From: Lutibacter citreus
Lineage (GTDB): Bacteria > Bacteroidota > Bacteroidia > Flavobacteriales > Flavobacteriaceae
DNA length: 64,000 bases
Direction: 5' to 3'
NCBI RefSeq assembly: GCF_003260195.1
Contig: NZ_QEIH01000001.1
Span: 496,001 to 560,000 of the forward strand
Shown: positions 16,835-50,634 of the stretch, piece by piece
Numbering within the stretch: the stretch's first letter is position 1
How the letters are laid out: every line of letters begins with the position of its first letter
Notes under the pieces: generated by a model
What the model saw: only the letters and a program-made list of their open reading frames with translations
The model's database searches: none
Told to the model about the DNA's origin: nothing
Translations under genes and position numbers: made by a program

Positions 16835-16852
16835 TAATAGTGGAGACGCCGG
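16835..16852. repeat. Left attachment site (copy of the ssrA 3' end)
   Basis: TAATAGTGGAGACGCCGG is identical to 50617-50634, which is the 3' end of the intact tmRNA gene. The match stops on both sides. The integrase starts 160 bases further in. This is the expected duplication made by a tyrosine recombinase that inserts into the 3' end of ssrA. Confidence 0.85.
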
Positions 16853-17011
16853 CTCATATTTAAGTTAATTTTTATTATCCAAATATTGTTCTTATGTTGT
16901 TGTAAAACAAGGTGTTGAGCAATTTTTTTATGCCTTATTATCATTTTTTTTAATAATAAGATATAATAAAATTATCAACCATTTTATCAACGCATAAAAA
17001 TAATTAAAATT

Positions 17012-18247
17012 ATGAGGCACACATTTTATTTGAGAAAACCAAAAGGTGAAAAGGAAACATTAATACTTTTTTCGTGTTATTTTAAAAATGAACAAAAGCA
17101 ATTTGTTTATTCAACAAGAAAAACAATACACCCTATTCACTGGGATTTTGAAAATAATAAACCCAAGAATAAGGGGAAAAATATAGCTATTAATCAAAAA
17201 AAGATTACCAATACATTAAATAAGTTCACCGATGAGTTTGATACATTTGAATCTAGATGTGAATTAAGTAAAACGGAATTTAATAGCGATTTGTTAAAAC
17301 AGTATTTAAATCAAGCCTTTGGTATTGTAACAGCTAAGCAAAGTTCTTTTTTTGATGTTTATGAAAAATTTATGGATGAGAAAATTAAACGAAAAGAATG
17401 GAAAAAAACTACTGTAAAGAGATATTATAATGTAAAAAATATATTGCTTGAATTTGAAAAAGTAAATAAATATAAATTAACTTTTAGTAAAATTAACAAT
17501 TCATTTTACACTGATTTTACTGATTTCTGTTATGAGTATAAAGATCATTATACAAGTACATTTAGCAGAAATGTTGGGTTGTTTAAAACATTTATGTATT
17601 GGGCTTATAAAAAAGAATTTACTTTCAATAATGCCTTTATGGATTTTGTTAAGCCAGCTAAAGATTTAACTCGACAAGAAGTTTTTTCATTGGAAGATGT
17701 TAAATATTTAAATTCTTTTGATTGTAGTTCTGATAGGTTAACCAAGGTTAAGGATATTTTTATTTTTCAATCTTTAACGGGTTTACGAGGTGGTGAATTG
17801 AAGAAAGTAAATAAGCGAGTTGTATTTGATAATTATTTTGTCTTGAAAGAAGAAAAAGATTCTTCAAAACCAGATAGGGAAATTCCTTTAATTGCTATTT
17901 CAAAGGGGATTTTAGTGAAGTATAATTATGAACTTCCAATAATTACAATACAAAAGTGTAATGATTATATAAAAGAAGTTGTTGAAAATGCCGGATTTAT
18001 TCATGAGGTTGAATACACAAGAACTAAAGGTGTTGAGCAAGTAACTTTTATAAAGAAGTTTTATCAACGAATATCTTCGCATACGGCTAGAAGAACATTT
18101 ATTACCATAATGAGAAATAATGGAATTGCTGATAAAACAATAATGAGCATAAGTGGGCATAGAGATATTAAATCTTTTAATATTTATCATCAAGTCAATA
18201 ACACTGCTAGAATTGATGCTGTGGAATCTGTGTTTGGTGGGATGTGA
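17012..18247 (+). CDS. int: Tyrosine recombinase (integrase)
   Basis: 411 residues, typical for Bacteroidota phage-type integrases with an N-terminal arm-binding domain (about 1-100), a SAM-like core-binding domain (about 110-215) and a catalytic domain. The catalytic set is complete: Arg259 in TGLRGGEL, His357 and Arg360 in SHTARRTF, His383 in SGHRD, and the nucleophile Tyr392 in NIYHQV. It lies 160 bases from the left attachment site and reads away from it. It should integrate and, with an excision factor (perhaps 49279-49569), excise the island at ssrA. Confidence 0.93.
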   Translation: MRHTFYLRKPKGEKETLILFSCYFKNEQKQFVYSTRKTIHPIHWDFENNKPKNKGKNIAINQKKITNTLNKFTDEFDTFESRCELSKTEFNSDLLKQYLNQAFGIVTAKQSSFFDVYEKFMDEKIKRKEWKKTTVKRYYNVKNILLEFEKVNKYKLTFSKINNSFYTDFTDFCYEYKDHYTSTFSRNVGLFKTFMYWAYKKEFTFNNAFMDFVKPAKDLTRQEVFSLEDVKYLNSFDCSSDRLTKVKDIFIFQSLTGLRGGELKKVNKRVVFDNYFVLKEEKDSSKPDREIPLIAISKGILVKYNYELPIITIQKCNDYIKEVVENAGFIHEVEYTRTKGVEQVTFIKKFYQRISSHTARRTFITIMRNNGIADKTIMSISGHRDIKSFNIYHQVNNTARIDAVESVFGGM

Positions 18248-18277
18248 AAATTTATAAGAATCTTAAATATTATTAAT

Positions 18278-18331
18278 AATGTAAACTATATTTACCAAAA
18301 AATGCTATATTTGTAATATATAGTTTACATT
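18278..18331. promoter_or_regulatory. Promoter and operator of the hipBA-like operon
   Basis: A perfect 14-bp inverted repeat, AATGTAAACTATAT (18278-18291) and ATATAGTTTACATT (18318-18331), brackets a TATATTTG -7 box (18306-18313). The predicted transcription start (about 18320) lies in the right arm. This is the layout expected for autorepression by the HipB-like protein just downstream. Confidence 0.7.
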
Positions 18332-18341
18332 ATATTTGATT

Positions 18342-18653
18342 ATGGCAAGAAGAAAAGTTATATTATTACCAAAGGTAAAGAGAATTCTATCTGAGTTAGG
18401 TGAGAATATTAAACTCGCAAGACTTAGAAGAAAATTGAGTGCAGCACAAGTGGCTGAACGAGCAAATATGAGCAGACCTACTTTATCAGGTATTGAAAAA
18501 GGTTCTGAAAGTGTTAGTATTGGCTCTTATTTATTGGTACTTCAAGTTTTAGGTTTAGAAAAGGATTTTCTTGATGTTGCTAAGGATGATGTTTTAGGAA
18601 GAAAATTACAAGATGCTAAATTAACAGTAAAAGAGAGGGCTCCTAAAAAATAA
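18342..18653 (+). CDS. hipB: HipB-like XRE-family antitoxin/repressor
   Basis: 103 residues from the ATG at 18342 (a TTG six bases earlier is in frame but unlikely to be used). An XRE helix-turn-helix spans about residues 18-72 (LARLRRKLSAAQVAERANMS, then LSGIEKG). It ends directly against the HipA-like gene (TAA then ATG), so the pair is co-translated. As in HipB it should bind the toxin and repress the operon through the inverted repeat at 18278-18331. Confidence 0.85.
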   Translation: MARRKVILLPKVKRILSELGENIKLARLRRKLSAAQVAERANMSRPTLSGIEKGSESVSIGSYLLVLQVLGLEKDFLDVAKDDVLGRKLQDAKLTVKERAPKK

Positions 18654-19931
18654 ATGATGATTAAAAGAAATACTAAAAGATCAATATTTGTATATGCTGA
18701 TTGGGATGGATTGGAAACACCTCAGTTGATGGGTATACTTTTTGCCGAATTATTAAGAGGGAAAGAAATATTTTCGTTTGAATATGACAAAGAGTGGTTA
18801 AATTCAGATAAAGCTCAATTATTAGATCCTGATTTGCAATTGTATGCTGGATTACATTATTTAAATGATGATATTAAAACTAATTTCGGACTATTTTTAG
18901 ATTCTTCTCCAGATCGTTGGGGAAGAATATTAATGCGTAGGAGAGAAGCTGCAATGGCTAGATTAGAAGAAAGAAAAGAAAGTAGTTTATTTGAAACAGA
19001 TTATTTATTAGGTGTTTATGATGGACACAGGATGGGTGCATTACGATTTAAGTTAGAAATTGATGGACCTTTTTTAAATGATAATAAAAAATTAGCAAGT
19101 CCACCCTGGTCATCTATTAGAGAGCTAGAGCAAATTAGTTTACGATTAGAAGATGAAGATGTTGTAGATGATCCAGGTTATTTGAATTGGTTAAGTATGT
19201 TGGTTGCTCCAGGTTCTTCTTTGGGTGGTGCTAGACCAAAAGCAAGTATAGTAGATAAGAATAATGAATTATGGATTGCGAAATTTCCAAGTAAAAATGA
19301 TGGAGAAAATATTGGAGCATGGGAAATGGTTACTTATGAATTAGCTTTGGAATCGGGTATTGAAATGTCAGAATGTAGAGCTCAAAAATTTAGTAGTAAA
19401 TATCATACATTTTTAACTAAAAGATTTGACCGAACCCAAGAGGGAAAAAGAATTCATTTTGCATCTGCAATGACTTTGTTAGGATATACGGATGGACAAG
19501 ATTATTCGGATGGAGTTAGTTATTTAGAATTGGTAGAATTTATTTCAACTAATGGTGCTAATGTTGAAACGGATCTAAAACAGTTATGGAGAAGAATAGT
19601 ATTTAGTATTTGCGTTTCCAATACAGATGATCATTTAAGGAATCACGGTTTTATTTTAACAAATAATGGTTGGATTCTTTCTCCAGCATATGATATTAAT
19701 CCAGTTGAAACTGGAACGGGATTAAAATTAAATATTTCTGAAAATGACAATGCATTAGATTTAGATTTGGCTCTTGATGTTTCACAATATTTCAGGTTAG
19801 GAAATGACGAAGCCATTAGCATAATAAATGAAGTTAAACACGCCGTTAATAATTGGAGAATTGTAGCTAATAATATAGGGTTATCAAGAACAGATCAAGA
19901 TTTGAAAGCCAGAGCTTTTATGTTTGATTAA
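18654..19931 (+). CDS. hipA: HipA-like serine/threonine kinase toxin
   Basis: 425 residues, the normal HipA length. An N-terminal HipA domain (FGLFLDSSPDRWGR) is followed by the kinase core: a Gly-rich nucleotide loop (SLGGARPKASI, about 200-210), IAKFPS, the catalytic loop NTDDHLRNHGF (about 322-332), and the metal-binding segment AYDINP. HipA toxins phosphorylate aminoacyl-tRNA synthetases and arrest growth. With hipB it may stabilise the island or act in phage defence. It starts immediately after the hipB stop. Confidence 0.88.
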   Translation: MMIKRNTKRSIFVYADWDGLETPQLMGILFAELLRGKEIFSFEYDKEWLNSDKAQLLDPDLQLYAGLHYLNDDIKTNFGLFLDSSPDRWGRILMRRREAAMARLEERKESSLFETDYLLGVYDGHRMGALRFKLEIDGPFLNDNKKLASPPWSSIRELEQISLRLEDEDVVDDPGYLNWLSMLVAPGSSLGGARPKASIVDKNNELWIAKFPSKNDGENIGAWEMVTYELALESGIEMSECRAQKFSSKYHTFLTKRFDRTQEGKRIHFASAMTLLGYTDGQDYSDGVSYLELVEFISTNGANVETDLKQLWRRIVFSICVSNTDDHLRNHGFILTNNGWILSPAYDINPVETGTGLKLNISENDNALDLDLALDVSQYFRLGNDEAISIINEVKHAVNNWRIVANNIGLSRTDQDLKARAFMFD

Positions 19932-20056
19932 ATTGTCTTATAAGTTTTTACTTTTGTAATTGGATAGATATAAAATATATATGTAACATTACTGCTATGA
20001 CACTTTGATTAAAAATTAAATATAGAGCTTTGATAAAATATTTAATAAATTAAATT

Positions 20057-20661: not shown

Positions 20662-22119
20662 ATGATAGAACCAGATGAGATGATTGAAATATTGTCTAAT
20701 TCTCCAAGTGTTGAGCTTTTAAGAATTAGACAAAGAGATTTAACTATTGAATTTTTTATTAGAGAATTCAAGGGGGAAGAAACTATAATTACTTCGGATA
20801 AACTACATGCTGATCTTTCTGACTTCTTAGAATATAAAAACGTTCAGGATGATGAAGAGAGTGACATTAAAGTATTTGATACATTTGAAGAGAAAGCAAA
20901 AAAATATATAAAGAACTGGACTTCAAAAGGATTTCTAACGAATTATAGTGAAAATGATGAAATTTATTTTGAATTAACTTCTCATACTAATAAAACTATC
21001 GACTGGCTTTCAAGCTTAAAAAAGAAAGAATTTGTAGGAGCAGAATCAAAATTCAAAGATATATTTAACCAGTTAAAAGAATTGGTTGAATATACGAATG
21101 AAGATATAGAAAAACGGATTGAAATACTTACGAGTAAAAAACTTGAAATTGAACATCAAATTCAACAATTACAATTTGGAGAAGATGTTAATGTTTTTGA
21201 AGATTATCAAATTATTGAAAAATTCAATAACCTCAATCAATCAGCAAAAGAGCTGTTGTCGGACTTTAAAGAAGTTGAAGACAACTTCAAAAATATTACA
21301 AAAGAAATATACCACAAACATTCCGATAGTAGCTTAACAAAGAGTGATATCCTTGGTTTTACATTTGATGCCCTTGATGAGTTAAAAGATAGTCATCAAG
21401 GAAAAAGTTTTTATGCTTTCTGGAGATTTTTAATGGATAGAGGGCTTCAAGAACAATGGCAAAGCCTAACACTTGAATTATTTGAAACATTGTCTCAAAA
21501 AAGTATTGAGTCCAAAGATTCGTTTCTAAAAGGAATGAAAAATCACCTTTATAATTCTGGTAGAAAAGTAACAAAAGCAAATGATAAGATGGCTCAAAAG
21601 TTGAGTCGAATTATTAAAGATAATCAAATATCGCAAAAGCAAATCACAGATAAATTAATTCAAGAAATTAAGTCATTTTTAAGTGAAATAAGCAAGTTGA
21701 AAATCACTCCTGATCTCTCAATTGAATTAGAAGATGAATTGTATTTGAAAATCCCTTTTGAAAAACGGTTAACTCACGAACAAAAGGAAGATATTGTATA
21801 TAATAGTAAACCAGTTTTAGCTGACAATAATATTTATGAATCAGATCAATTAAATAAAATCTTTGATAAAGATGTTATCGACAAAAAAGAACTTTCTAAT
21901 AGAATCAAAAAAGCATTGGACATAAATTCTCAAACTACTCTTTTTGAAGTAATTGAATCTAATGGAGGAATAGATAAAGGTTTACCTGAGCTTTTTGGAT
22001 ATTTTAATGTAATCAAAGATTTTACTCATAATTTTAATCCCGACAAACAACAAGAAATAGTTTTTGATACTAAAAACTTAAAATCAATTAAAATCCCTGA
22101 AATTATACTTCTTAAATGA
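20662..22119 (+). CDS. jetA: Wadjet JetA (DUF3375, kleisin-like subunit)
   Basis: 485 residues, close to the usual size of DUF3375. N-terminal winged-helix-like part (about 1-110: LRIRQRDLTIEFFIREF), a central coiled coil (about 125-215) and a C-terminal domain. In type I Wadjet, JetA is the MukF-like kleisin joining the JetC motor and JetB. The complex extrudes loops on closed circular DNA and lets JetD cut, which blocks plasmid transformation. The stop overlaps the jetB start by four bases. Confidence 0.85.
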   Translation: MIEPDEMIEILSNSPSVELLRIRQRDLTIEFFIREFKGEETIITSDKLHADLSDFLEYKNVQDDEESDIKVFDTFEEKAKKYIKNWTSKGFLTNYSENDEIYFELTSHTNKTIDWLSSLKKKEFVGAESKFKDIFNQLKELVEYTNEDIEKRIEILTSKKLEIEHQIQQLQFGEDVNVFEDYQIIEKFNNLNQSAKELLSDFKEVEDNFKNITKEIYHKHSDSSLTKSDILGFTFDALDELKDSHQGKSFYAFWRFLMDRGLQEQWQSLTLELFETLSQKSIESKDSFLKGMKNHLYNSGRKVTKANDKMAQKLSRIIKDNQISQKQITDKLIQEIKSFLSEISKLKITPDLSIELEDELYLKIPFEKRLTHEQKEDIVYNSKPVLADNNIYESDQLNKIFDKDVIDKKELSNRIKKALDINSQTTLFEVIESNGGIDKGLPELFGYFNVIKDFTHNFNPDKQQEIVFDTKNLKSIKIPEIILLK

Positions 22120-22700
22120 GTCACTTACAAGATAAAATAAAACCATATTCAAAAGCGATAGTTAAATTGCTAAGAGGAACAGTAGAAAGTAAAGATATTA
22201 CTTGGGCTGAAATATTAAATTACAGAGATGAAATTCAAGACTATATTAATCAAATTGGTTTAGAATTGATTCTTAAAGAAGATGATGGATATGCCTTTGT
22301 GAAACAATTTGAAATAGACAATGATGGAAATACCATAGGATTGGTTTCAAGAAGACAAGTTGGTTTTGAAATGTCAATACTTTTAGTAATACTAAGGCAA
22401 ATTATAGAAGAATTCGAGCAAAATCCAATTGAATTTCAAGGGTTAGAAAAGAATATTTCACATACAGAACTTAGAGATGAAATTGAATTATTTCTACCTG
22501 AAAAATATAATAAAGTTAAATTTTTAAAAGATTTAGATACTTATATTAAACGTGTAATAGAATTAGGTTATTTGAAAGAAATAAAAAATAATGAGGGAGA
22601 GGCAAGGTATAAAATACATAGAATAATTAAAGAAAAGGTGACACTTGATATTTTGAATGAATTTAAAGAAAAATTAAAAAATTATGTACAGTCTATTTAG
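22116..22700 (+). CDS. jetB: Wadjet JetB (DUF4194, MukE-like subunit)
   Basis: 194 residues, the expected length for DUF4194. A double winged-helix protein: N-terminal segment ILNYRDEIQDYINQIGLELIL with the linked YAFV, the conserved VSRRQVGFEMSILLVILRQ patch, and the C-terminal GYLKEI and ARYKIHRI strands. It binds the JetA kleisin as MukE binds MukF. It overlaps jetA by 4 bases and jetC by 17, which argues for tightly coupled translation. Confidence 0.87.
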   Translation: MSHLQDKIKPYSKAIVKLLRGTVESKDITWAEILNYRDEIQDYINQIGLELILKEDDGYAFVKQFEIDNDGNTIGLVSRRQVGFEMSILLVILRQIIEEFEQNPIEFQGLEKNISHTELRDEIELFLPEKYNKVKFLKDLDTYIKRVIELGYLKEIKNNEGEARYKIHRIIKEKVTLDILNEFKEKLKNYVQSI

Positions 22701-25700
22701 TACAAGTTCTGATAAAGCAGGGTTTAGACTTCAATATATGGAAGTTTATAATTGGGGGACTTTTGACAAACAAATTTTCAAAATCAGTCCATTAAGTAAT
22801 AACTCTCTTTTAACTGGAGCTAATGGTTCAGGAAAAACAACATATATTGATGCTCTATTAACATTACTAGTTCCATCTAAAAAAGACCGTTTTTACAATC
22901 AATCATCTGGTGTAGAAAAAAAAGGAGATAGAGATGAAGAAAGTTATGTTCTTGGTCATTATGGTGATATACAGAAAGAAGGTGAGTTAAGTAGTACAAC
23001 TCAAATGTTAAGAAATAAGAAGTCATATTCTGTTATTTTGGCTTGTTTTGCTAATACAGACCAGAAAACTGTGACACTTTTCCAGGTAAGATGGTTTTCA
23101 GGTGGAGTGTTAAAAAGATCATTTGGCATTGCTCATCAATCCCTAAATATTGAAAATGATTTTTTCCCATTTGATTCAAAAGGAAATTGGAAAAAACTAA
23201 TAGATAAAATATATAATTCCAATAGTCTAAAGAAAAAAGTAGAGTTTTTTGAGGGACCAACAAAATATGCCGAAAGAATGGTTATTTTATTTGGTATGAA
23301 ATCATCAAAAGCTCTTAGTTTATTTAATCAAGTTGTTGGAATTAAGGTTTTAGGTGATTTAGATGAATTTATTCGTGTAAATATGCTAGAATGGAGAGAT
23401 GCTGAAAATGAATACATTCAACTTAAAGAGAGCTTTGTTACTTTAATGGATGCAAAAAATAATATTGATAAAGCTAAAGAGCAAATTAAACAACTTGAAC
23501 CTATAAATAATATTGCAAACCAACTTGAAAAAATTGAGGGTAGTATTAAGAATTTAAAAGCTGATAAAGAAATTAGTGTATTTTGGTTTTCAATAAAAGG
23601 GAAAAATATTTGTGAAAAAGAAATTGAAGTAATCAATGCTAAGCTAGTCCTTTGTGATGCTGAAATTGAAAAGCTAAAAGCGAAAGAAATTGATTTGAAA
23701 GAGGAAGAAACTGATTTAAGTGTTCAAATTAAAAGTGATGAAGTTGGCAAACAAATATCAGAATTAAGTAAAGAAATCCTGAGATTTGAAAAACTCAGAG
23801 ATACTAGAAAAAACAAATTAGATAATTACAATTCATTATCACAAAAACTAAGTTTACCAACAAACCCTAATAAAGAAGTTTTCTTACAAACAAGAGAAAC
23901 AACTAAGATTAAAAAGGCTGAGTGTAAACATAAGGAAGATGCGCTTAGGGACGATTTAAGAAAGATAAAGAATCAACAAGATGAAATAGAGTTTAATGTA
24001 AGTAATGGTCTTGAGACGGTAAAAATACTTCAGCAAAACAAAAATAATATTTCAGGACGAGTTGCTCAAATTAGAGAAGAAATTTTATTAGAAATTGGAG
24101 CAACTAAAGAAGAGATACCATTTATTGCAGAATTAATTAATATAAATGATTCTGAAAAAGAATGGGAGTCTTCAATAGAAAAAGTACTTCATAATTTTTC
24201 TTTACAATTAATTGTTCCAGAAAAATACTACCATCAAGTGAATAAATATGTGAATAATATTAATTTAAAAGGGAAGATAAACTATCAATGTTATAGGCAA
24301 CAAGTTTCTCTTTTAACTATGCAGAGCATTAGTTTTGATAAAAAATACTTAATCAATAAGATTAGTTTTAAACCAAATAACTTATATACAGATTGGATTG
24401 AAGAAAAAATAATTCAACAATTTAATTATATATGTGCAGATAATTTGGAAGAGTTTAATGTCCAAGAAAAAGCAATAACTAAGAAAGGACTCGTCAAGTT
24501 TGGAAAAGGAAGACATGAAAAGGATGACCGTAAACATATCATAAGTAAAGAAAATTATATTTTAGGTTGGGATAATAAAGAAAAATTAGAATGGTGGAAA
24601 AAAGAATTAAAACTTTATCAATTAGAGCAAAAAGAAAATTTAGTACAGTTAAGAAAAATAGATAAGTCTATTAATGAGATTGAAGAACTTCAAGATGATT
24701 ATTCTGAATTATTCAAACTATACACTAAGTTTGACGAAATAGATTGGCTCACGTTTGCTAAAGAAATAAAATTAAAACAAGAACAAAGAACAAAGCTTGA
24801 AAAAGCAAATGATAAAGTAAGGGTGCTTCAAGAACAATTGAAAGAAACTAAAGAACTTTTGAGTAAAAACGGAGACTTGATAGATGAAGAAAAGGATACA
24901 AAATCAAAATTGAAAATTTCGCTTGATGATGCTGAAAGTCAATTAGCAAATCATCTAAGTATTTTAAATGTTATTGAAGAAATTAATGCAGACTTGGTTG
25001 AATTTGAATTTGAAAATAAAAATTTATTAAATATTAATTATTCGAATTTTGAAGTTGTTAGGGCTTCATTTCAAACAAATAATTCTTTAAAATTAACCGA
25101 ATTAAACAAAAACAAATCAAATTTAAAAGAGGAAGTAATTCCGAAAATCAGTGCTTTTAAAAACCCTTCTGAATCAATTTCATCTAAATACAAGTCTTGG
25201 CGTTCAGATGTTAGTTCTTTGCCTGAAAAAATTGAATTCATAAGTGAATATCAAGATAAGTACAAAGATCTAATAGAAGAAGGGCTTATTGAATTTGAAA
25301 ATCGTTTTAATAAATATTTAGAAGATACTATTACAGATAAAGTAGGTGGTTTTAATATGTTTTTTCAAAATTGGGGAGATGACATAAAGAAAAATATTGA
25401 TTCGTTAAATGATGCATTGAGGGAAATTGAATTTAAAAATAGTCCAAAAACATATATCCAACTCATTGCTCAATTTAAAACTAGTGATGAGATAAAAGAG
25501 TTTAAAAATCTATTGCATAATGCAATACCAAATTTTAAAGAAATTGATAGTTCAATAGATGGGAAAAAAGTACATTTTGAAAATCATATTGAACCTTTAA
25601 TAAAGAAATTAGAAGATGAAAAATGGCGAAATAAAGCAATGGAAGTTCGCTCATGGTTTGAATACAAAGCTGAAGAATTTTATTTAGAAACAAATCAAAA

Positions 25701-27245: not shown

Positions 27246-27327
27246 AAGAACGTTGAATCTTAAATCAAATAAAAAATTATATTCTGCAAGTTTTCTTTAT
27301 TCCTTGCTAGGGTTTATTAAATTAATT

Positions 27328-29760: not shown

Positions 29761-29772
29761 GTAATAAAAGAT

Positions 29773-37514: not shown

Positions 37515-37766
37515 CTATTTATATTGTTCGGGTATGTATCCAGCCTTTTTTACTAATTGATGTAAAGTAGAGCCATATGATGGTCTACCTTTACTTTTAC
37601 TTATACATTCTTTGTTTAATATTCGTTGAAAAATTTCTATAGGTACGTTGTCATACTTATAACCACTTTCATTTTTGAATTCAACGTATAAATCTTGCCC
37701 TGAATGAGCAATTCTAATTATATTGTCTGAATCGTGTCCAATTTCATTCCATTCTAAATTTTCCAT
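37515..37766 (-). CDS. KTSC-domain protein
   Basis: 83 residues. Core: a short beta hairpin (IIRIAHSGQDLYVEFKNES), then YKYDNVPIEIFQRIL, fits the KTSC domain (about 60 residues, named for a Lys-Thr-Ser-Cys pattern), followed by a C-terminal helix carrying SKSKGRPSYGSTLHQLVKK. KTSC domains are of unknown function, sometimes fused to nucleic-acid enzymes. The gene starts 6 bases after herA on the same strand, so it is most likely transcribed with the SIR2-HerA pair. Confidence 0.65.
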   Translation of the reverse strand: MENLEWNEIGHDSDNIIRIAHSGQDLYVEFKNESGYKYDNVPIEIFQRILNKECISKSKGRPSYGSTLHQLVKKAGYIPEQYK

Positions 37767-43500: not shown

Positions 43501-43900
43501 AAGTTACTACATATTCACAACCTTTTTGATTTGCTTTGTAATCAAATGCTTGTTTACGAATACTTTCTAAATCTTTAGTTTTTGTACCTTTTAATTCAAT
43601 AACTGCAATTGCTGTTTCTTCTTTTAAAATTGCACCGTCTGCTTTTTGAGCATTGGTTTGATTTTTATATTCTGCAACTAAATTAAAATCTACATTTGGC
43701 TTAATGGTATATCCTAAGATATTTACAAAGAGTTCCGTTAAAAAAATACCTTGATACTCTTCTTCTTTTGACTTTTTAATATTTTCTTGAATACCAGTAT
43801 TGTGAAAGTATTTTACATATTTTTTATATGCTTTTTGGACAATAAGTTCGTCCTGTCTATTCAGGTAATTTTTAAGTACTGAGGTTTGATATAATGCCAT
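40580..43900 (-). CDS. Type IIG restriction-modification enzyme (Eco57I-like)
   Basis: 1106 residues combining an N-terminal nuclease-like part (about 1-150; VAEYKNQTNAQKADGAILK and AIAVIELKGTKTKDL give the D...ExK pattern), an adenine-specific methyltransferase core (motif I DPACGSGAFLNQAL at about 469, motif IV GNPPYLRVQG at about 591) and a TaqI-C-like specificity region near 980-1050 (YFRFKTKYLEPFPLPKL). One protein thus cuts and methylates. The recognition sequence cannot be deduced. It is probably the first gene of the operon leading into SIR2-HerA. Confidence 0.9.
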   Translation of the reverse strand: MALYQTSVLKNYLNRQDELIVQKAYKKYVKYFHNTGIQENIKKSKEEEYQGIFLTELFVNILGYTIKPNVDFNLVAEYKNQTNAQKADGAILKEETAIAVIELKGTKTKDLESIRKQAFDYKANQKGCEYVVTSNYEKLRFYINDATEYEEFNLFTLTIQEFELLYLCLNKENIFNNLPLIIKEESITEEEKITKSFYSDYSMFKRELFRDLVKKNAKDLKLIRSSELSSESSTSEEKELHQFEKNVKLTLFKKSQKLIDRFLFIFFAEDRDLLPPNSTIQILDKWKEDMEFGDERPLYNLFKQYFNYLDSGRKQVGKRAEIYAYNGGLFKPDPILDQLVIDSELLYKYTSKLAKYDFESQVDVNILGHIFENSLNEIESVNAEIEGGEFDKQTSKRKKDGVFYTPKYITKYIVENTVGKLCEEKKQALVFKEEEYYKSRKGRQRETLENLLKILDDYRAWLLQLTICDPACGSGAFLNQALNFLIKEHHYIDELKAKLLGGGLVFSDIENTILENNIYGVDLNEESVEIAKLSLWLRTAQPKRKLNDLSNTIKCGNSLIDNKAISGDKAFNWEQEFPQIFEKGGFDVVIGNPPYLRVQGLRKNFSKESEFYEKTFKSATGRFDVYVLFMEKSFFLIKKKGIVSFILPHKFLVSDFGEGIRDFFIQNKSVESILTFGSEMVFSDASTYTCIINLKHNNSEIKFKEIKPNEIFNIFDFEIANYDSLSKDKWNLTNQTIEKLFNKLHSQPWTVKDVFENISQGVVSVGDDIFLMKGHIQGDLFIGYSDKIGQNITIEAETVKPLLKGEDVKKYASLNNSYFCLYPHYEKNGKTIPFEEEYFKENYPLAYDYMLPFKDELIEKKIRYKTNPKAWYSLHRSREMSLFEQEKIVTPETSFGGNLTIDTYGYYHNTQVYTLEKNQNVECDNKFWLAILNSSVFWFYLQQTGAVLRGGYFRFKTKYLEPFPLPKLESIEGQIPYVEKVNLMLSNTKYFQNITGKFTKYLQSQFQIEKLTKKLQNWDELDFGDFIKELNKAIKATNKERLKANQQEVPLLTKKDEFEWLDLFEENKQKAQELQNQINQTDKEIDAMVYELYGLTVEEIKIVENS

Positions 43901-44051: not shown

Positions 44052-44594
44052 TTAACTGCAATAATTCTCGATTGTTTCTAGAATGTTTTGTCTTGTATAT
44101 TTAGTTACCATAGACAAATCGAATTCTGAAGCAAAGTTGGCAAGTAGATTTTTCAACTCTTTAATTAAATCATTATCTAATTCTGTAAATTCGGGCTCAT
44201 ATATTTTATGTGCTAACTTTCTTCCAAATTTGAAATCAAAATCGGCATCAGAATGTTCTATGTCAATACCATCATCATCATTATAATCTGAATCTTGGAA
44301 ATATTTCAAGTATAATTTATTTAAGGTCCAAAAATGTAGTGCTGTTGTTTCATCTTTATCTAGATTTTTCACAAAAGGATATATAAAATCATCCATTTCT
44401 TCTTCAACAAACACATCTAACACTCCTTTACAATGATTTACACTTTCTAAATGGTCGGTGATAATTTTATTTTTGCTATCTTTTTTAAATGAAAAATTGA
44501 TTAATAATTTACGTAATACAATTGTTTTAGCATAGCTAACAACAATATTGTTTACTTCTTTTGTAATGTATAATTTATCATTAATTGTAATCAT
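44052..44594 (-). CDS. Hypothetical acidic protein
   Basis: 180 residues from the ATG at 44594 (the frame extends to a TTG at 44654, but ATG fits better). Not recognised. Mostly helical, no membrane segment, with a strongly acidic stretch around residues 103-120 (DSDYNDDDGIDIEHSDADF). It lies 151 bases upstream of the RM gene on the same strand. It might be an RM control or inhibitor protein, but nothing in the sequence shows that. Confidence 0.5.
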   Translation of the reverse strand: MITINDKLYITKEVNNIVVSYAKTIVLRKLLINFSFKKDSKNKIITDHLESVNHCKGVLDVFVEEEMDDFIYPFVKNLDKDETTALHFWTLNKLYLKYFQDSDYNDDDGIDIEHSDADFDFKFGRKLAHKIYEPEFTELDNDLIKELKNLLANFASEFDLSMVTKYTRQNILETIENYCS

Positions 44595-44721
44595 AGCTTT
44601 TTTTAAGGTTAAATATAGGGAGTCTATTACAAATAAGATTATATAATTGTACAATTATATATTTAAGTAATTAAAAAAATATTAGTATTTTTAATTATAA
44701 CTAGTCACCATTGTAGTCACT

Positions 44722-45000
44722 TCATATTTTTTTTAAAAAGGACTCAAATAAGTTTATTGTAGGATTTTCAGAAAGTGCTTCTAATGCAATGTGGCAAGCT
44801 CCTTGTATTATTTTTTTTCTAAAATCCAAATCTTCATATGGAACAAATGCTTCAACTTGTGAAATAAATATAATCACTTTAAAGGCTAGTTTTTCATTAT
44901 TGATAATGTTATTAAAAGTAGATAATTCTATTTCATTAGCCTGATATTGTTCTATTAGTATTTCAATGAGATACTTTGAATGGAAATTTGTTTCGTTCAT
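44722..45000 (-). CDS. Hypothetical small protein
   Basis: 92 residues, not recognised. Helical and mildly acidic, no membrane segment (IEILIEQYQANEIELSTF, then KIIQGACHIALEALSENP). It begins just past the end of the nested structured element (45011-45211) on the same strand, so that element could be its 5' leader if the terminator is read through. Confidence 0.5.
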   Translation of the reverse strand: MNETNFHSKYLIEILIEQYQANEIELSTFNNIINNEKLAFKVIIFISQVEAFVPYEDLDFRKKIIQGACHIALEALSENPTINLFESFLKKI

Positions 45001-45198: not shown

Positions 45199-45203
45199 AA
45201 ATT

Positions 45204-45211: not shown

Positions 45212-45236
45212 AGTATTCTTTTTCTTAATTCTATAT

Positions 45237-45467: not shown

Positions 45468-45493
45468 AATTATAGATTTATAGCATTATATTT

Positions 45494-46084
45494 TCATACA
45501 AGTGCTGTTAATACTTCTTTTGTAAGATTATCAAGTTGTCTTTGAGCGTTTTTATTGCTTTTAATCCCTTTTTCTAGTACAGATCGTGTAATAGAAACGA
45601 GATCGCTAATATGTGTATTTGCAATTTTTATATTGTACTCTTCCAGTCCAATTAGTATATCAATCGTTAAAGTAGTATTCACTTTAATCATGTTAAAAAC
45701 TACCATTGCTTGTCCAATTTTACTTTCTGATTTAATCAAATTAATGGTGCTTTCTATAGCTAGTAAATCTAAAAAACCTGCTTTCGTTGGAATTAAAATC
45801 AAATCAGCTAGTTGCATTAATTTTGATAAATGATTTGACAAGTAGGGTGGAGTAACTATAAAAATAAAATCGTACTCTAAATCTTTAATTTTTTCTATTG
45901 TATCCTGGTATGGAATGATATCAAAATCTGTCACTAAATCTTTTAATTGAGACAAACTTCCTTGTACATCCATATCAAGAACAGCTACTTTGGCATTGCT
46001 GCTGATATTTTGAGCTAGTAAAAAAGCTAGTGTTGACTTCCCAACACCACCTTTTTGGTGTGTTATGAGTATAATTTTAGTCAT
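45494..46084 (-). CDS. parA: ParA-family partition ATPase
   Basis: 196 residues, a short ParA without an N-terminal DNA-binding domain. The deviant Walker A THQKGGVGKSTLAFLLAQ (about 8-25), AVLDMDVQGSLSQL (Walker A') and DLILIPTKAGFLDLLA are clear. It uses ATP-driven nucleoid binding to segregate a DNA circle together with its small partner downstream. The gene lies one base beyond the relaxase stop. Confidence 0.9.
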   Translation of the reverse strand: MTKIILITHQKGGVGKSTLAFLLAQNISSNAKVAVLDMDVQGSLSQLKDLVTDFDIIPYQDTIEKIKDLEYDFIFIVTPPYLSNHLSKLMQLADLILIPTKAGFLDLLAIESTINLIKSESKIGQAMVVFNMIKVNTTLTIDILIGLEEYNIKIANTHISDLVSITRSVLEKGIKSNKNAQRQLDNLTKEVLTALV

Positions 46085-46085
46085 A

Positions 46086-46979
46086 TTATAATCTTCTTCG
46101 GTTTTTACGTTTTTTTAGTTTCTTTGGAGCATCTTCAAAATCATTAGAATCTGAATTATTTTCGATTAAATTATTTACAGTATCAAATATTAAATCTGAA
46201 TTAAACTTTTCAGTATTTTGTTCCGTATTCTGAAAAGTATTTTGTTGAGTATTCTGTTCTAGTTGTTGGTTTTGTTGGTGTTCATAACTTAATAATTTTT
46301 CAATTCCTTTTAGTGAAAGCCCCCTGTCAATTTTAGATCCTTTAAAATACACATCTTTGTAAGTGAACCCTATTCCTCTTCCAATTTTAACTTTAATTTC
46401 CTCATTTTTTAAATGAAATATTACATCATCTATAGAATCGGACATTTCAATAGCTTTAAATATCTTTTCTTTTAAAGGTTGAATTCGTTTATCAGAAGAT
46501 TTAAAAACCTCATTATTCTTCACTGTTTCGAAAACTCGTTTAACTTTTCGAAGATTGTATTTTTTTTCAACCTCTCTACAGAAGTCCATATTTTTATAAT
46601 GTGTGTAACTATCAGAAACAGCTTTATTATTTTCTGTAATCCTAGATGCAACTATATGAATATGCTCTTTTTTAGTTCCTTCCTCATGTACATATACTGC
46701 AAATGGGTTATTTTGGAAACCAATTTTAGCAGCATAGTCATTTGAAATATTTAGCCAGTCATCGATTGAAAGCAATTTCCTATCCTCAGGAGCTATCCTA
46801 ACTTTAATATGAAATGTTGGTTTTAAGCATTTATCGTTAGATGCATTATTTTCTAGCATCTGTAAATAGATATCTTTGCTGTTTCCTAGACATTGATTTG
46901 AATAAATAATGTCTCCCCCCCTTTCGCAATACTCTAAAGCATTTTGAGTGTATGAAATAGATTGTAATTTGGTTATCAT
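46086..46979 (-). CDS. mobB: Relaxase/mobilization nuclease (MobB-like)
   Basis: 297 residues. An N-terminal relaxase domain with the opening MITKLQSISYTQNALEYCE, FHIKVRIAPEDR, and the metal-binding H-x-H motif in HEEGTKKEHIHIVASR (about 97-112). The C-terminal part is Gln/Asn-rich (about 235-265) and ends in a basic tail. It would nick the oriT (candidate at 47965-48050) and lead the strand to a recipient. Its start shares bases with the stop of the preceding coiled-coil gene. Confidence 0.85.
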   Translation of the reverse strand: MITKLQSISYTQNALEYCERGGDIIYSNQCLGNSKDIYLQMLENNASNDKCLKPTFHIKVRIAPEDRKLLSIDDWLNISNDYAAKIGFQNNPFAVYVHEEGTKKEHIHIVASRITENNKAVSDSYTHYKNMDFCREVEKKYNLRKVKRVFETVKNNEVFKSSDKRIQPLKEKIFKAIEMSDSIDDVIFHLKNEEIKVKIGRGIGFTYKDVYFKGSKIDRGLSLKGIEKLLSYEHQQNQQLEQNTQQNTFQNTEQNTEKFNSDLIFDTVNNLIENNSDSNDFEDAPKKLKKRKNRRRL

Positions 46980-47581
46980 TATTGTAATTTTTTAAGTTCA
47001 CTTTCTAACTTTTGTTTGCGCATTTCCTTTTTATAAACTTCGTTTAGCTCATTATATTCATTCATTAAAATAGCTTCTTTACTTTTTATTTTCTCAAATA
47101 AATTCTCCAAGTCTTGCGGTAATTCTTTATGGGATTCAAATTTTTTTAAGTAGATGTAGTTATAAAAAGTTTGGTAATTCTCTTTTTCTTGTTTTAATTC
47201 ACTACGATTCAATAAAAATGGAGGGACATATTTTATAGCTGCCCAGGAGATACATATAAATGCTATAACAATAATTACAAATTTGGTATTAAGTGGGGAG
47301 TCTTTACCGAAAATAATACATTCATAATTATTGGTTTCGTTCGTGCCTATGCTTGATTTTAAAGAATTAGTGAGTTCTTGATTATAAGTATCAATTCTTT
47401 TTGAAATATTATTTTGTTGCAATAATAACTTATTGAATTCAATAGGTAGGTTTGTTAAAAAGTCTGATTCAGGTTTTTGAACAGTATCATTTTTTATGTC
47501 AATTTTAGCTGAAACTTCATCAAGTTTATCAACGATATTTTGCATTAAATTGAAAACAGCTTTGGTATTTGAATTTTCCAT
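46979..47581 (-). CDS. Membrane-anchored coiled-coil mobilization accessory protein
   Basis: 200 residues: an N-terminal helical region, one membrane helix (about 108-126, VIIVIAFICISWAAIKYV) and a C-terminal coiled coil rich in Lys and Glu. It sits between MobC and the relaxase, overlapping the relaxase start by one base. Bacteroidota mobilizable elements often carry a membrane protein here that may tether the relaxosome to the coupling protein. Function inferred from position. Confidence 0.55.
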   Translation of the reverse strand: MENSNTKAVFNLMQNIVDKLDEVSAKIDIKNDTVQKPESDFLTNLPIEFNKLLLQQNNISKRIDTYNQELTNSLKSSIGTNETNNYECIIFGKDSPLNTKFVIIVIAFICISWAAIKYVPPFLLNRSELKQEKENYQTFYNYIYLKKFESHKELPQDLENLFEKIKSKEAILMNEYNELNEVYKKEMRKQKLESELKKLQ

Positions 47582-47587
47582 TACAAA

Positions 47588-47932
47588 CTATAGTTTAGAT
47601 TTTATTTCTAAAATGTGGTTATTAATATTTTTTATATCATTTAAAACAGTCTGTTGATCTGCCAACATAAATTTGACTCCAGAATTTAATTTTTTGGATA
47701 TTTGATTCAAGTTAACTCCAATTCTAATCAATTCTGAGATGTAACCTTTTGTATCTAAATCTTGCTTTTTGACATTAAAAATTGGCTTTCCTAATTTTTC
47801 AAGGACTGAATTTCTTATAAAAAACGAAGCTCTTATTTGCAATAATTCACACTGACCATTTAGTAATTCTTTGTCTTCTGTACTTAAATAAAAGACTACT
47901 CTTTTTTTATTTTTTAGGATATTTTTATTCAT
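47588..47932 (-). CDS. mobC: MobC-like relaxosome accessory protein
   Basis: 114 residues with an RHH-like N-terminus (KRVVFYLSTEDKELLNGQ, then SFFIRNSVLEKLG) and the family motif ISELIRIGVNLNQISKKLN (about 64-83) of MobC proteins (PF05713). It binds DNA at oriT and helps the relaxase to melt and nick it. First gene of the mob operon; the candidate oriT lies directly upstream of its start. Confidence 0.85.
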   Translation of the reverse strand: MNKNILKNKKRVVFYLSTEDKELLNGQCELLQIRASFFIRNSVLEKLGKPIFNVKKQDLDTKGYISELIRIGVNLNQISKKLNSGVKFMLADQQTVLNDIKNINNHILEIKSKL

Positions 47933-47964
47933 AAATTTTTAATTTTAAATGGAGTAAAGAGAAT

Positions 47965-48050
47965 ATGAGATATTGCTCTTGCCAGTCGTGGGAAGTGCGC
48001 ACACTACGTGTACAACATCCCGCCTGGCTATTCGCAATTGCATTGCTCAT
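47965..48050. other. Candidate origin of transfer (oriT)
   Basis: Nested inverted repeats just upstream of mobC: ATGAG/CTCAT (47965-47969 with 48046-48050), ATTGC/GCAAT (47972-47976 with 48034-48038), GCCAG/CTGGC (47981-47985 with 48024-48028), GTGGGA/TCCCGC (47988-47993 with 48018-48023, one wobble), around the palindromes GTGCGCAC and TACGTGTA. Position and structure suit an oriT; the nick site is not identified. It is richer in G+C than its surroundings. Confidence 0.5.
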
Positions 48051-48089
48051 AGAAAAGGTTTTTTTGATTAAAAAAATGATTGAATTCTT

Positions 48090-48785
48090 TCATCTACGAC
48101 TTTCTCCATCCAGTTTTAGAATATTAAACATTTCAATAAATCGATCTTCAATCCTTAATCCATATCGTTTTTTAATTTCTTGAAGTGTTAAATTTGAGGT
48201 TATATAAGTTTTGGTACCTTTTGAAATGAATTGAACATAACGTGCTTCTAAAATTCGAATAAAAATATCTTCTTTTCCATATATAAAAATATTACTAGCA
48301 AAAGGTTCTGAACCTAAATCATCTAGCATATAGTTGCCATTTGAATAGTATTTAATGACAAAATCTTTATTTTTTTCTGTATTAAATTTCATCACAACTT
48401 CTGATGTTTCAATTATTGGGAACCACAGGTTTTTCAAGGTGTATTTTTTTGAGATTTGATGTATAATAGAGAGGCTTGATGTTTTTCCGGCACCAGGGTT
48501 TCCGAATATAAATAAACCTTTGTTTAAGTCTCCATTATGAATAGTTTCAAAGGCTTCATCTTTTGAAAAGTATCGGCATAATTGGTTTAAGAAGTTTTTA
48601 TTGTTAGTATCAATAGTGAATATTTTATTTTTGGAGGTATAATATTCTTTTGCTTCAATATTAAAAAGTTGCTTCAATTGATTTGTATCAATATCACTTT
48701 CTGATTTTTGTTTATTTTTTTTCCCTTTTCCTAAAATTAAAGAGTGTTTTTTTAGGATACTATTTATGGAATTTGATTGTTTCAT
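48090..48785 (-). CDS. DnaC-like helicase loader ATPase
   Basis: 231 residues. Walker A FIFGNPGAGKTSSL (about 91-104) and Walker B YMLDDLGSEPF (about 151-161), followed by the sensor region TKTYITSNLTLQEIKKRYG and the Arg-containing RIEDRFIEM. This is the DnaC/IstB-type AAA+ fold that loads the replicative helicase. It follows the replication HTH gene by 10 bases, so together they form a DnaD/DnaC-like replication start module. Confidence 0.8.
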   Translation of the reverse strand: MKQSNSINSILKKHSLILGKGKKNKQKSESDIDTNQLKQLFNIEAKEYYTSKNKIFTIDTNNKNFLNQLCRYFSKDEAFETIHNGDLNKGLFIFGNPGAGKTSSLSIIHQISKKYTLKNLWFPIIETSEVVMKFNTEKNKDFVIKYYSNGNYMLDDLGSEPFASNIFIYGKEDIFIRILEARYVQFISKGTKTYITSNLTLQEIKKRYGLRIEDRFIEMFNILKLDGESRR

Positions 48786-48795
48786 TTTTTATAAT

Positions 48796-49254
48796 TTAAT
48801 TAAGAGGGGCACCTCTTTTGTTTTTTGGCGTGTCTAAATTATTTTCTTCAAAAGAAAAATCAATGGACTTATTAATTGGTATATTATGGTAGACATTTTT
48901 GTCTATGCTGGAAGGATTTTTTTGACTTTCTGGTTTAGACAATTTTGTCAATGCAGCTTCGCCAGTTTGAAAATTTATTTCAAGGTTACTCTTTAAGTAT
49001 CTCTTTCTACCATCAAAATGTGTCTCAGTTATCCATCCCAATTTTTTTAAGTCTGAAATTAATCTTGAAACTTGTCTATCAGAAACACCTAGAAAATTTG
49101 AGATATAATTATTTGAAAAAAAGCAAGGTTTTCCATTCGCTGTAAAACTGTGGATTTCTATAAACAAAACTTTAGTTATCCATTTAGCCTCTGTACTTAA
49201 ATAAATATCTTTAGGTATCCATACCCCAGTAAAAATCCTTTTTGAATTTTCCAT
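48796..49254 (-). CDS. Replication-type helix-turn-helix protein
   Basis: 152 residues. A winged-helix DNA-binding domain over about 15-75 (LFIEIHSFTANGKPCFFSNN, then FLGVSDRQVSRLISDLKKLG and WITETHFDGRKRYL), as in phage O/DnaD-like replication initiators, then a disordered tail that could contact the DnaC-like loader encoded next. It precedes that gene by 10 bases on the same strand. Confidence 0.7.
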   Translation of the reverse strand: MENSKRIFTGVWIPKDIYLSTEAKWITKVLFIEIHSFTANGKPCFFSNNYISNFLGVSDRQVSRLISDLKKLGWITETHFDGRKRYLKSNLEINFQTGEAALTKLSKPESQKNPSSIDKNVYHNIPINKSIDFSFEENNLDTPKNKRGAPLN

Positions 49255-49278
49255 AATAGCTAGTTTTTGATCGAACTA

Positions 49279-49569
49279 TTATGACTTTCTTAGATATTTA
49301 TATGACTTGGGCTTATTGTCCTCAGTAAATAGGTCGGAATGATGGATTAATTTTCGGTTAATTCCATAAGTTTCTATATGAAGAAAACCAGCTTTGTTAT
49401 AATTTTTGATAGTTTGTGAATCTACTTTCAAAATTTTACTAGCCTCAGGGACTGTATAGAATTTTAGTGTGTAATCTTCTTTTGGAGCATCTTTAATTGA
49501 AAGGGCTATTTCTTTTATCTCATCTAATTGTTTGAAAAGATTCTTAAATGGATCTACGTAATAATTCAT
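49279..49569 (-). CDS. Excisionase-like helix-turn-helix protein
   Basis: 96 residues with an HTH_17/MerR-type domain: YTVPEASKILKVDSQTIKNY, then AGFLHIETYGINRKLIHHSDL (about 37-85). Small proteins of this type act as recombination directionality factors (Xis) or as regulators on Bacteroidota mobile elements. It is the only Xis candidate on the island. It lies 24 bases upstream of the replication HTH gene. Confidence 0.65.
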   Translation of the reverse strand: MNYYVDPFKNLFKQLDEIKEIALSIKDAPKEDYTLKFYTVPEASKILKVDSQTIKNYNKAGFLHIETYGINRKLIHHSDLFTEDNKPKSYKYLRKS

Positions 49570-49652
49570 ATTTTATGGTTTTTAATTTATTTCCACAAAT
49601 ATGAGTAACAAAGTATATGAGAATTAATTCGAATTAATTCTTTTTCCCTTTA

Positions 49653-50474
49653 TTATTTGAATTTTTCTAAAAGAGTAATAATTTCTTTATTTTTCTTTAT
49701 TGTAGTATCTTGTAAAAGGTGAAGTATGTATTTTTTATATTTTCTATCTCGTAAAAAAATATCTGGGTTGCGATCTTTTTCAATTTTACCATATTCACTT
49801 TTTAAAGTTCCAGCATCTATATTTTCTAAAGTGGCTATTCTTTCAAAGAATGATTTTTTTGTTATATGGAAGTCGTTAGATCTTTGTTCCTTGTCATAAT
49901 AATGAATAATATAATACTTAAGTGCAATAAAAATATTTTTTGTGAATTGTTTTGGGCCTCTAGTCTGATTTTTAATATTTGATTTTAATTCCGTTTTATT
50001 AAAAAAGTTAATATTTGAGTAATTATATTGAAAAGTATTGAAATAATTAATAATATAATTTTTGTTTGTCGTTTCCTGAGAAATATTTTTTTTTAATGAA
50101 ATTTCATTTTCAGAAGGAATATTTTTATCTTCTTGTTTTTTGAACGAATTATTTTTAAGAGGATTAAGTTTTTTAACATCAAACCACAGGCATAAAATTC
50201 CAAGGAGTATAATAGTACTTAATCCAATAAAATTAAAATACTCATTATTTAAGTTAAATTCTATAATAGATTTTAATGCAACTAAAGGAGATATTAAAAT
50301 TATTGCTGTAAATATAAGTTTTAACCTATCAATATTTGGATCCCATATTATTTTTTGATTGAAAAAATAAGGAACAAATTTACTTGCATATCTTTGTGAA
50401 ACAATCCAGAAATGGATTAAGCTAAAACCGAAACTTACCAGTATAAGTAAAATGTAAATATTGAAGACACTCAT
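49653..50474 (-). CDS. Hypothetical membrane protein at the island's right end
   Basis: 273 residues: three likely membrane helices (about 5-27, 50-68 and 79-97) and a soluble Lys/Asn-rich C-terminal domain (about 100-273) with no motif I recognise. It is the gene nearest the right attachment site, 142 bases away, and reads inwards. Genes at this position often serve excision or maintenance, but nothing here shows a role. Confidence 0.55.
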   Translation of the reverse strand: MSVFNIYILLILVSFGFSLIHFWIVSQRYASKFVPYFFNQKIIWDPNIDRLKLIFTAIILISPLVALKSIIEFNLNNEYFNFIGLSTIILLGILCLWFDVKKLNPLKNNSFKKQEDKNIPSENEISLKKNISQETTNKNYIINYFNTFQYNYSNINFFNKTELKSNIKNQTRGPKQFTKNIFIALKYYIIHYYDKEQRSNDFHITKKSFFERIATLENIDAGTLKSEYGKIEKDRNPDIFLRDRKYKKYILHLLQDTTIKKNKEIITLLEKFK

Positions 50475-50586
50475 CGTTTTATATTAATAATTAGTAATTA
50501 AGTATAAAAATAGTAAATTTGTTTGATACAACAATATAAAATAAGTTTGGATAGATTATCAACGCTACCACGAGCTCAAAATAAAA

Positions 50587-50607
50587 AACCCTTATAGAAT
50601 AAGGGTT
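50587..50607 (-). terminator. tmRNA terminator supplied by the island
   Basis: A 9-bp stem (AACCCTTAT at 50587-50595, ATAAGGGTT at 50599-50607) with a 3-base loop and a T-run on the minus strand. It lies 16 bases beyond the tmRNA 3' end, but on the island side of the attachment site, so the island brings its own terminator for ssrA. Confidence 0.7.
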
Positions 50608-50616
50608 TGTAAGGTG

Positions 50617-50634
50617 TAATAGTGGAGACGCCGG
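50617..50634. repeat. Right attachment site at the ssrA 3' end
   Basis: TAATAGTGGAGACGCCGG, identical to 16835-16852. The last 12 bases are the 3' end of the tmRNA gene (acceptor-stem strand and discriminator), so insertion keeps tmRNA intact. Confidence 0.88.

Follow-up and report, generated by a model that had tools for sequence, protein, structure and literature searches.

The element and its borders

A 64,000-nt window of the Lutibacter citreus genome (GCF_003260195.1, contig NZ_QEIH01000001.1, positions 496,001-560,000 of the forward strand; coordinates below are those of this window) contains a 33.8-kb element bounded by two exact direct copies of the 18-mer TAATAGTGGAGACGCCGG, here termed attR and attL (Table 1). 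Even when 3 mismatches are allowed, the window has no further copy, and no match to the repeat arose in 100 dinucleotide shuffles. The attL copy comprises the 3' end of the tmRNA gene, ssrA, and a few bases past it; the tmRNA lies on the minus strand and is detected by both ARAGORN and Rfam (RF00023, 50620-51013, 148.4 bits), and ssrA DNA has one match across the whole host genome (5.1 Mb, 35 contigs). The copy-to-copy distance, and with it the expected length of an excised circle, is 33,782 bp. These repeats, together with the match of the att copies in related elements to the tmRNA of their hosts (see below), show integration at ssrA. The preliminary description of this DNA had proposed exact ssrA-end borders enclosing a single, site-specifically inserted unit, and both proposals are supported. 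GC content does not set the island apart from its surroundings, and a repeat search of the window returned many short families, none readable as an internal border.

All 26 open reading frames (ORFs) called as genes in the element are open and without interruption. Proceeding from attR, the plus strand encodes a tyrosine integrase, a helix-turn-helix (HTH) protein followed by a HipA-like kinase, the Wadjet proteins JetABCD and the Shango proteins SngABC. The rest is on the minus strand, in the order DUF2779 protein, dCTP-deaminase-like protein, KTSC protein, HerA, SIR2, type IIG restriction enzyme, two uncharacterised proteins, ParA, relaxase, another uncharacterised protein, MobC, DnaC-like and O-like replication proteins, HTH_17 protein and a last uncharacterised protein at attL. 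The element has a recombinase (Phage_integrase) with an exact 18-bp att pair and a relaxase of its own (PF03432), both among the features by which an integrative and mobilizable element (IME) is recognised. The integrase and the mobilisation, replication and partition genes are verified by Pfam, NCBIfam and PHROGs; the genes named in the preliminary description were likewise recovered, whereas those for the DUF2779, KTSC and excisionase-like HTH_17 proteins had gone unnamed there.

Table 1. Features of the ssrA-associated element of L. citreus, in window coordinates
Feature	Position	Strand	Evidence
attR, 18-bp copy of ssrA 3' end	16835..16852		exact repeat, 0 in shuffles; ~160 nt before integrase start, as in relatives
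Tyrosine integrase, tmRNA-targeting subfamily (predicted)	17012..18247	+	PF00589 (Phage_integrase), PF17293 (Arm-DNA-bind_5); relatives adjoin tmRNA
HTH antitoxin (HipB-like)	18336..18653	+	HTH_31/HTH_3; 64% homolog after integrase in T. soleae
HipA-like toxin kinase, putative stability module	18654..19931	+	HipA_C 7.7e-52; 72% homolog adjoining integrase in T. soleae
Wadjet type I jetABCD	20662..27245	+	PADLOC JetA1 7.6e-194, JetB1 6.2e-60, JetC1 0, JetD1 2e-142
Shango sngABC, starts 7 nt past jetD	27253..33218	+	PADLOC SngA 4.1e-39, SngB 2.5e-165, SngC 2e-203; Pfam
DUF2779 protein, predicted Cas4-like and DnaQ-like nuclease	33314..35272	-	PF11074 2.5e-23; conserved residues; passages of PMC3985635
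dCTP-deaminase-like defence protein, 670 aa	35304..37316	-	PADLOC dCTPase 1e-111; HAE and PCxxC motifs
KTSC-domain small protein	37515..37766	-	PF13619 6.2e-7
HerA ATPase of SIR2-HerA	37773..39530	-	PADLOC HerA 1e-125
SIR2 of SIR2-HerA	39533..40570	-	PADLOC SIR2 8.2e-88
Type IIG restriction-methyltransferase	40580..43900	-	PADLOC 7.2e-289; NPPY at 592
Uncharacterised 200 aa protein	44052..44654	-	no match in the family libraries scanned
Uncharacterised 92 aa protein	44722..45000	-	27-37 aa matches in G344 and T. holothuriorum elements; weak phrog tail match 0.0042
ParA partition ATPase	45494..46084	-	PF13614; NF041546 4.4e-27, below its cut-off; 59-77% in 9/9 same-layout relatives
Relaxase (MobA/VirD2 fold; Bacteroid MobB-like)	46086..46979	-	PF03432 1.6e-22, above cut-off; NF041325 3.8e-24, below cut-off of 400
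Putative mobilization accessory protein	46979..47581	-	position; 29-35% homologs between MobC and relaxase in G425, G436, G437, G067, G336, G405
MobC/NikA-like relaxosome protein	47588..47932	-	PF21983, PF05713
Candidate oriT, inverted repeat upstream of mobC	47978..48030	-	same pattern upstream of mobC in L028, L033; function putative
DnaC-like helicase loader	48090..48785	-	phrog_50 1.5e-16
O-like replication initiator	48796..49254	-	phrog_270 1.7e-13
HTH_17 excisionase-like protein	49279..49569	-	PF12728 1.3e-5, just below cut-off; phrog_2907 0.0039; homologs in 9/9 same-layout relatives
Uncharacterised protein at ssrA end	49653..50474	-	26-33% homologs in G423, G321, G433, G439
attL at ssrA 3' end	50617..50634		exact repeat; ARAGORN/Rfam tmRNA
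ssrA (tmRNA), host attachment gene	50622..51013	-	ARAGORN, Rfam

An integrase family associated with tmRNA

At a threshold of 1e-60, 33 relatives of the integrase besides itself were recovered from 397 genomes of the Flavobacteriaceae. Eight of the 15 with at least 44% identity lie on the same contig as a tmRNA that faces them, 7-41 kb away; the other seven are on a different contig from the tmRNA, and for four of these (G382, G212, G163 and G248) the distance to a contig end is less than 10.5 kb. Below 44% identity one of 18 relatives is linked to tmRNA (G079); six share its contig at a distance of more than 0.4 Mb (G431, G207, G190 and G114, all one-contig genomes, as well as G241 and G264), and the others are on other contigs. 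In 10 of the 11 cases examined, a stretch near the integrase matches the end of the tmRNA of the same host or the DNA immediately 3' of that end. In G423 and G104 the longest match lies beyond the tmRNA gene, the G423 core resting on its named record L084 and that of G104 being less certain. A match of either kind recurs in all six further named relatives.

A single-sequence search of the contigs of named genomes returned no integrase relative; a profile search of the same kind of genomes found 167, the best 80 of which were analysed. In 49 of these 80 loci the integrase is preceded, at a distance of 153-195 nt, by one of seven tmRNA-end cores chosen after inspection of the relatives, against 1 core site in a control that comprised the same strand of the downstream bodies with the tmRNA excluded. 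The genera among the loci include Tenacibaculum, Polaribacter, Flavobacterium, Aquimarina, Zobellia, Maribacter and Winogradskyella. We infer from these associations that the integrase of the L. citreus element is the mark of a tmRNA-targeting family in the Flavobacteriaceae, reported here as new. In six loci (L065, L088, L074, L080, L098 and L128) the integrase is preceded by two or three tmRNA-end cores ~120-170 nt apart, reminiscent of scars left when elements inserted or excised repeatedly.

ssrA loci in the genus

Of 38 genomes of the genus, 36 have the AlaDH gene that adjoins ssrA. The ssrA loci of 20 of the 35 other genomes were examined, over 2.5-16.2 kb each, and in six of them (L003, L005, L008, L009, L013 and L020) the genes of the window's left flank are found downstream of ssrA. 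The preliminary description had predicted an empty site in relatives joining position 16834 directly to 50635; this holds at the level of genes, but not base by base, as the intergenic DNA differs. A second exact copy of the tmRNA 3' 12-mer is not present in 19 of the 20 loci within the stretches examined. In one of these single-copy loci, L018, ssrA adjoins a distant integrase (24%), and a single tmRNA copy is therefore no proof of an empty site there. The only locus with a second copy belongs to the congeneric genome G004, in which (L016, L035) tandem insertions are found at ssrA and a gene for a protein 83% identical to HTH_17 of the window comes after the second att. The second insertion is interpreted as a sister element or a remnant at the same site.

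On the left flank of the window, ~5.7 kb with an AMP-binding gene (11208-16834) intervenes between attR and a conserved ssrA-side gene (10401-11084). In L013 the tmRNA lies 0.7 kb from the homolog of the latter gene, the further 5.7 kb being absent beside ssrA, and the AMP-binding gene has no match at 1e-60 in any of the 37 other genomes of the genus. The segment is possibly a separate lineage-specific insertion.

Layout and cargo of related elements

Linked relatives with at least 54% integrase identity number 11, and nine of them share the layout of the L. citreus element, in which the end next to ssrA holds the genes for HTH_17, replication, mobilisation and ParA, and the opposite end the integrase. 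They are found in G425, G423, G321, G432 (Tenacibaculum holothuriorum), G433 (T. soleae), G435 (Aquimarina), G436 (Gelidibacter pelagius), G437 (Flavobacterium frigidarium) and G439 (a Maribacter metagenome-assembled genome, MAG); eight named genomes had been taken from the top of the relative list, skipping L077, six with tmRNA on the integrase contig and two (G434, G438) without. The replication region is modular, with a Toprim/CHC2 primase-like homolog in eight of the nine, a DUF5906 protein in five and, in G435, a homolog of the DnaC-like protein of L. citreus. Relaxases of the window type (60-68%) are present in G425, G436 and G437 and distant ones (25-29%) in G423, G321, G435 and G439, the relaxase slot being occupied by a DUF5712 protein in the two Tenacibaculum elements.

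Restriction-modification (RM) genes are present in all nine same-layout relatives, of type I in G425, G321, G432, G433, G435, G436 and G437 and of type IIG in G423 and G439. A second layout, with an HTH gene near the integrase, is seen in G104, G358, G337, G323, G344 and G079, with RM genes in three of the six so far as scanned. PADLOC was applied to 30 + 10 chosen large proteins of the relatives, none of them from G337 and one each, without a match, from G323 and G344; the RM assignments in G423, G432, G435 and G104 rest on homology to PADLOC-scanned proteins. Further cargo of the relatives includes PifA-like, PDC-M62A, Drt2, Hhe/PDC-S37, GmrSD and type III-D Cas proteins, a ThsB-like TIR domain and a reverse transcriptase. 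Homologs of 30 defence queries, searched over up to 10 kb per element, occur on the element side in 21 of the 80 named loci and on the outer side in 1 of 80; as the queries derive partly from elements among these loci, eight of which match themselves at 100%, the counts without the latter are 13 of 72 and 1 of 72. The remaining two linked relatives, L077 (Polaribacter, 69%) and L090 (Salegentibacter, 57%), span only ~6 kb from integrase to tmRNA, carry HipA-like genes (28-29%) and have integrases that are split between frames or interrupted; they are read as remnants. The larger, intact elements thus usually carry defence cargo, which is not shown for the short ones.

Defence cargo of the L. 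citreus element

JetA, JetB, JetC and JetD occur together, as in Wadjet type I, with GANGSGKT as the Walker A motif of JetC, and SngA, SngB and SngC together make up Shango, the SngA match spanning only residues 273-833 of 835. The SIR2 and HerA genes are adjacent with a gap of 2 nt. A type IIG enzyme would join a fused nuclease to its methylase; the putative one here has the methylase motif NPPY and a strong PADLOC match. The dCTP-deaminase-like protein scores 296.6 bits against an equivalog cut-off of 400 for NF041025 and is therefore classed as dCTP-deaminase-like only. Neighbouring jet and sng genes either overlap or leave gaps of 7-12 nt, and hence they are probably expressed as a single transcript. 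A conserved Wadjet-Shango pair was considered but is not supported: Shango homologs in L138, L140, L141 and a Persicobacter plasmid (L055) lack a jet gene in the stretches examined, and JetA is nearby only in L139. SngA of the window (27253-29760) has an N-terminal SH3_3 and TM2 region in front of TerB_C; a Persicobacter megaplasmid encodes a SngA homolog with 50% identity over 92% of the length, together with a SngB that is 89% identical.

The HTH antitoxin gene directly precedes that of the HipA kinase (gap 0), the Couple_hipA N-terminal match being below its cut-off, and PADLOC returned for HipA only a partial match (residues 192-347) to the candidate family PDC-M03A (1.4e-8). HipBA is better read as a toxin-antitoxin or stability module than as a defence system. 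Of the six or more defence systems claimed in the preliminary description, the genes of Wadjet, Shango, the dCTP-deaminase-like protein, SIR2-HerA and the type IIG enzyme were recovered, whereas a defence role of HipBA is not supported. The same description had called so many complete systems in one compact unit notable. As larger relatives usually bear defence genes, the kind of cargo is less exceptional than first thought, but the number of systems exceeds the recognised count of any relative, the cargo of the relatives having been scanned only in part. Judging from the families represented, the cargo would defend the host against phages and plasmids, and with the host also the element.

Mobility and origin of the element

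No genes for a type IV secretion system or its coupling protein (T4CP) were recognised among the 26 ORFs (Pfam on all, other libraries on part), in agreement with the earlier proposal that the element lacks transfer machinery and depends on a helper. An oriT-like pattern corresponding to the inverted repeat upstream of mobC was found in two of six relatives searched (L028 and L033), the pattern having been fitted to these very sequences. The T4CP family PF12696 matches in five of 12 other element-bearing genomes searched. Relatives of the relaxase and of the integrase in the plasmid and phage collections are distant only (best 28% and 30%, respectively, among the matches listed).

It is highly likely, on gene content and comparison with relatives, that the element is an IME of a tmRNA-targeting Flavobacteriaceae family whose larger members carry defence genes. 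The integrase would recombine the att site of the element with the 3' end of ssrA, which the repeat shows to be left intact, and the HTH_17 protein may direct excision. The O-like/DnaC-like replication module and ParA could then maintain the 33,782-bp circle, HipBA and the restriction enzyme would penalise loss of the element, and a conjugative helper would be able to transfer it by way of the relaxase, MobC and the oriT-like repeat. The middle section, comprising Wadjet I, Shango, the dCTP-deaminase-like protein, SIR2-HerA, the type IIG enzyme and the DUF2779 nuclease-like protein, is probably exchangeable cargo.

Several observations weigh against this interpretation. Near the integrase of G096 there is no att match, and 31 of the 80 named loci have no literal core, five of them (L072, L100, L103, L111 and L125) with a tmRNA in the stretch. 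The integrases of different hosts are not clearly more alike than the AlaDH proteins of those hosts, and recent transfer between genera is not shown by this comparison. Neither L077 nor L090 has a mobilisation or ParA homolog or a match to a defence query, and among the ten named loci with tmRNA inside the examined stretch only L123 has a defence query match. The oriT pattern is absent upstream of mobC in four of the six relatives searched. The own genome has no match to PF12696, for which control genomes do match, nor to the T4CP model TIGR03783, for which no control genome passed the cut-off either; a helper would thus have to come from outside. Lastly, the comparison within the genus offers no conspecific genome and no base-exact empty junction, given its differing intergenic DNA.

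Some of these points would also fit an immobile, decayed remnant in which the defence genes have simply been retained, given a genome without a detected helper T4CP and the broken integrases of the relatives L077, L090 and G212. This is an unlikely account, as all 26 ORFs remain open and the two att copies are identical. Stepwise accretion at a defence hotspot, in which unrelated insertions piled up at ssrA so that what lies between the repeats is a composite and not a single mobile unit, would explain the opposed transcription blocks that meet near 33.3 kb and has parallels in the att arrays of two to three copies in six relatives and in the tandem insertions of the congeneric G004. We consider it very unlikely, since only two copies of the repeat occur in the window at up to 3 mismatches and nine linked relatives likewise combine this two-ended backbone with an att pair. 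To a satellite akin to the phage-inducible chromosomal islands, moving by capsid hijacking rather than conjugation, we give scarcely any credence: satellites use tmRNA as well, according to passages of PMC10121019, the O-like initiator and DnaC-like loader resemble phage replication proteins and the 92-aa ORF has a weak tail-family match, but the element encodes a relaxase and MobC next to an oriT-like repeat, and no terminase, capsid or packaging gene was recognised (Pfam on 26 ORFs, PHROGs on 10).

Within the preferred interpretation as an IME, a more specific and rather doubtful proposal is that of a defence shuttle: an undescribed ssrA-fixed IME family, whose intact two-ended members would always carry RM genes, while the interval from ParA to the integrase would exchange other systems (Wadjet, Shango, type III-D Cas, Hhe, GmrSD, reverse transcriptases). 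On this proposal the L. citreus element would also have to shield its own circle from its own Wadjet by licensing, and DUF2779 would be an unrecognised defence nuclease. The two linked relatives without recognised cargo make it somewhat less likely.

Wadjet is reported, in passages of PMC10586767, to cut circles below about 50-100 kb, with escape above about 100 kb, and to be sometimes encoded on circular plasmids, so that some form of evasion exists. By this measure the 33,782-bp excised circle is predicted to fall in the Wadjet-sensitive range. No Jet homologs were found in the nine same-layout relatives within the stretches examined. The presence of Wadjet on an element with such a circle makes Wadjet self-avoidance testable.

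Relation to known elements

Among published elements, the tmRNA site, IMEs and defence cargo are each already known. In Escherichia coli the tmRNA site is used by prophages, satellites, IMEs and transposons, and its hotspot #9 holds defence-carrying elements, IMEs included (passages of PMC10121019). These resemble the L. citreus element in their tmRNA site, integrase-bounded island, defence cargo and dependence on a helper, whereas the latter has a flavobacterial integrase, mobilisation and ParA backbone and several systems in one unit. Bacteroides IMEs such as NBU1 and Tn4555 share a tyrosine integrase, a MobP-type relaxase and the need for a helper (passages of PMC5704250), but the present element differs in its ssrA target, O/DnaC-like replication, ParA and defence cargo. 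The same kinds of maintenance module are described, in parts of that review, for IMEs with a replisome organizer and DnaC and for IMEs and integrative and conjugative elements with partition, toxin-antitoxin or RM genes; combination, host group and cargo load set the L. citreus element apart from these. The terms 'tmRNA' and 'Flavobacter' have no occurrence in the text of the review. Genomic islands of marine bacteria, Flavobacteria included, bear RM genes, mostly of type I, a likeness that extends to RM-bearing islands of marine Bacteroidetes; the passages of PMC3478194 describing them contain no IME family at tmRNA.

The components of Wadjet type I, Shango, SIR2-HerA, dCTP deaminase and type IIG RM in the window match PADLOC models; relative to the known forms, SngA has the SH3_3-TM2 N-terminus and the deaminase is longer and below the NCBIfam equivalog cut-off. 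As listings of the open literature (subscription papers and preprints being outside the search) gave no description of a flavobacterial tmRNA defence IME family, this family seems undescribed. The element is a concrete case, with defined borders, of a vehicle by which complete sets of defence systems could pass from one flavobacterium to another, and the att rule, by which a tmRNA-end core lies about 150-195 nt before the integrase, allows further elements and their cargo to be found.

The DUF2779 protein

The DUF2779 family is present in 24 of 394 other genomes of the Flavobacteriaceae, and of six papers in the open literature searched that mention it none has it in title or abstract. Passages of PMC3985635 predict Cas4-like and DnaQ-like nucleases for this family. 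In an alignment of 23 of 24 possible rows, the conserved residues C15, D101, E114, K116, C262, C265 and C285 fit a Cas4-like nuclease and D381, E383, D505, Y633 and D637 a DnaQ-like nuclease, this motif reading being our own. A single-sequence AlphaFold model (pLDDT 36) was unusable and was set aside. Another defence homolog is found in the same stretch at seven of 20 DUF2779 loci and none, with the limited query set, at 13: the companions are a dCTP deaminase and type I RM in L178, Hhe in L179, Wadjet in L195, a reverse transcriptase in L188-L190 and a weak HsdM match in L193. The nuclease-like gene is a candidate defence component absent from current lists.

The host genome has a second DUF2779 copy that is 60% identical (G000:C2:156485-158443, L184). 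The reverse transcriptases near DUF2779 in L188, L189 and L190 are 41-43% identical to that of the Maribacter MAG element.

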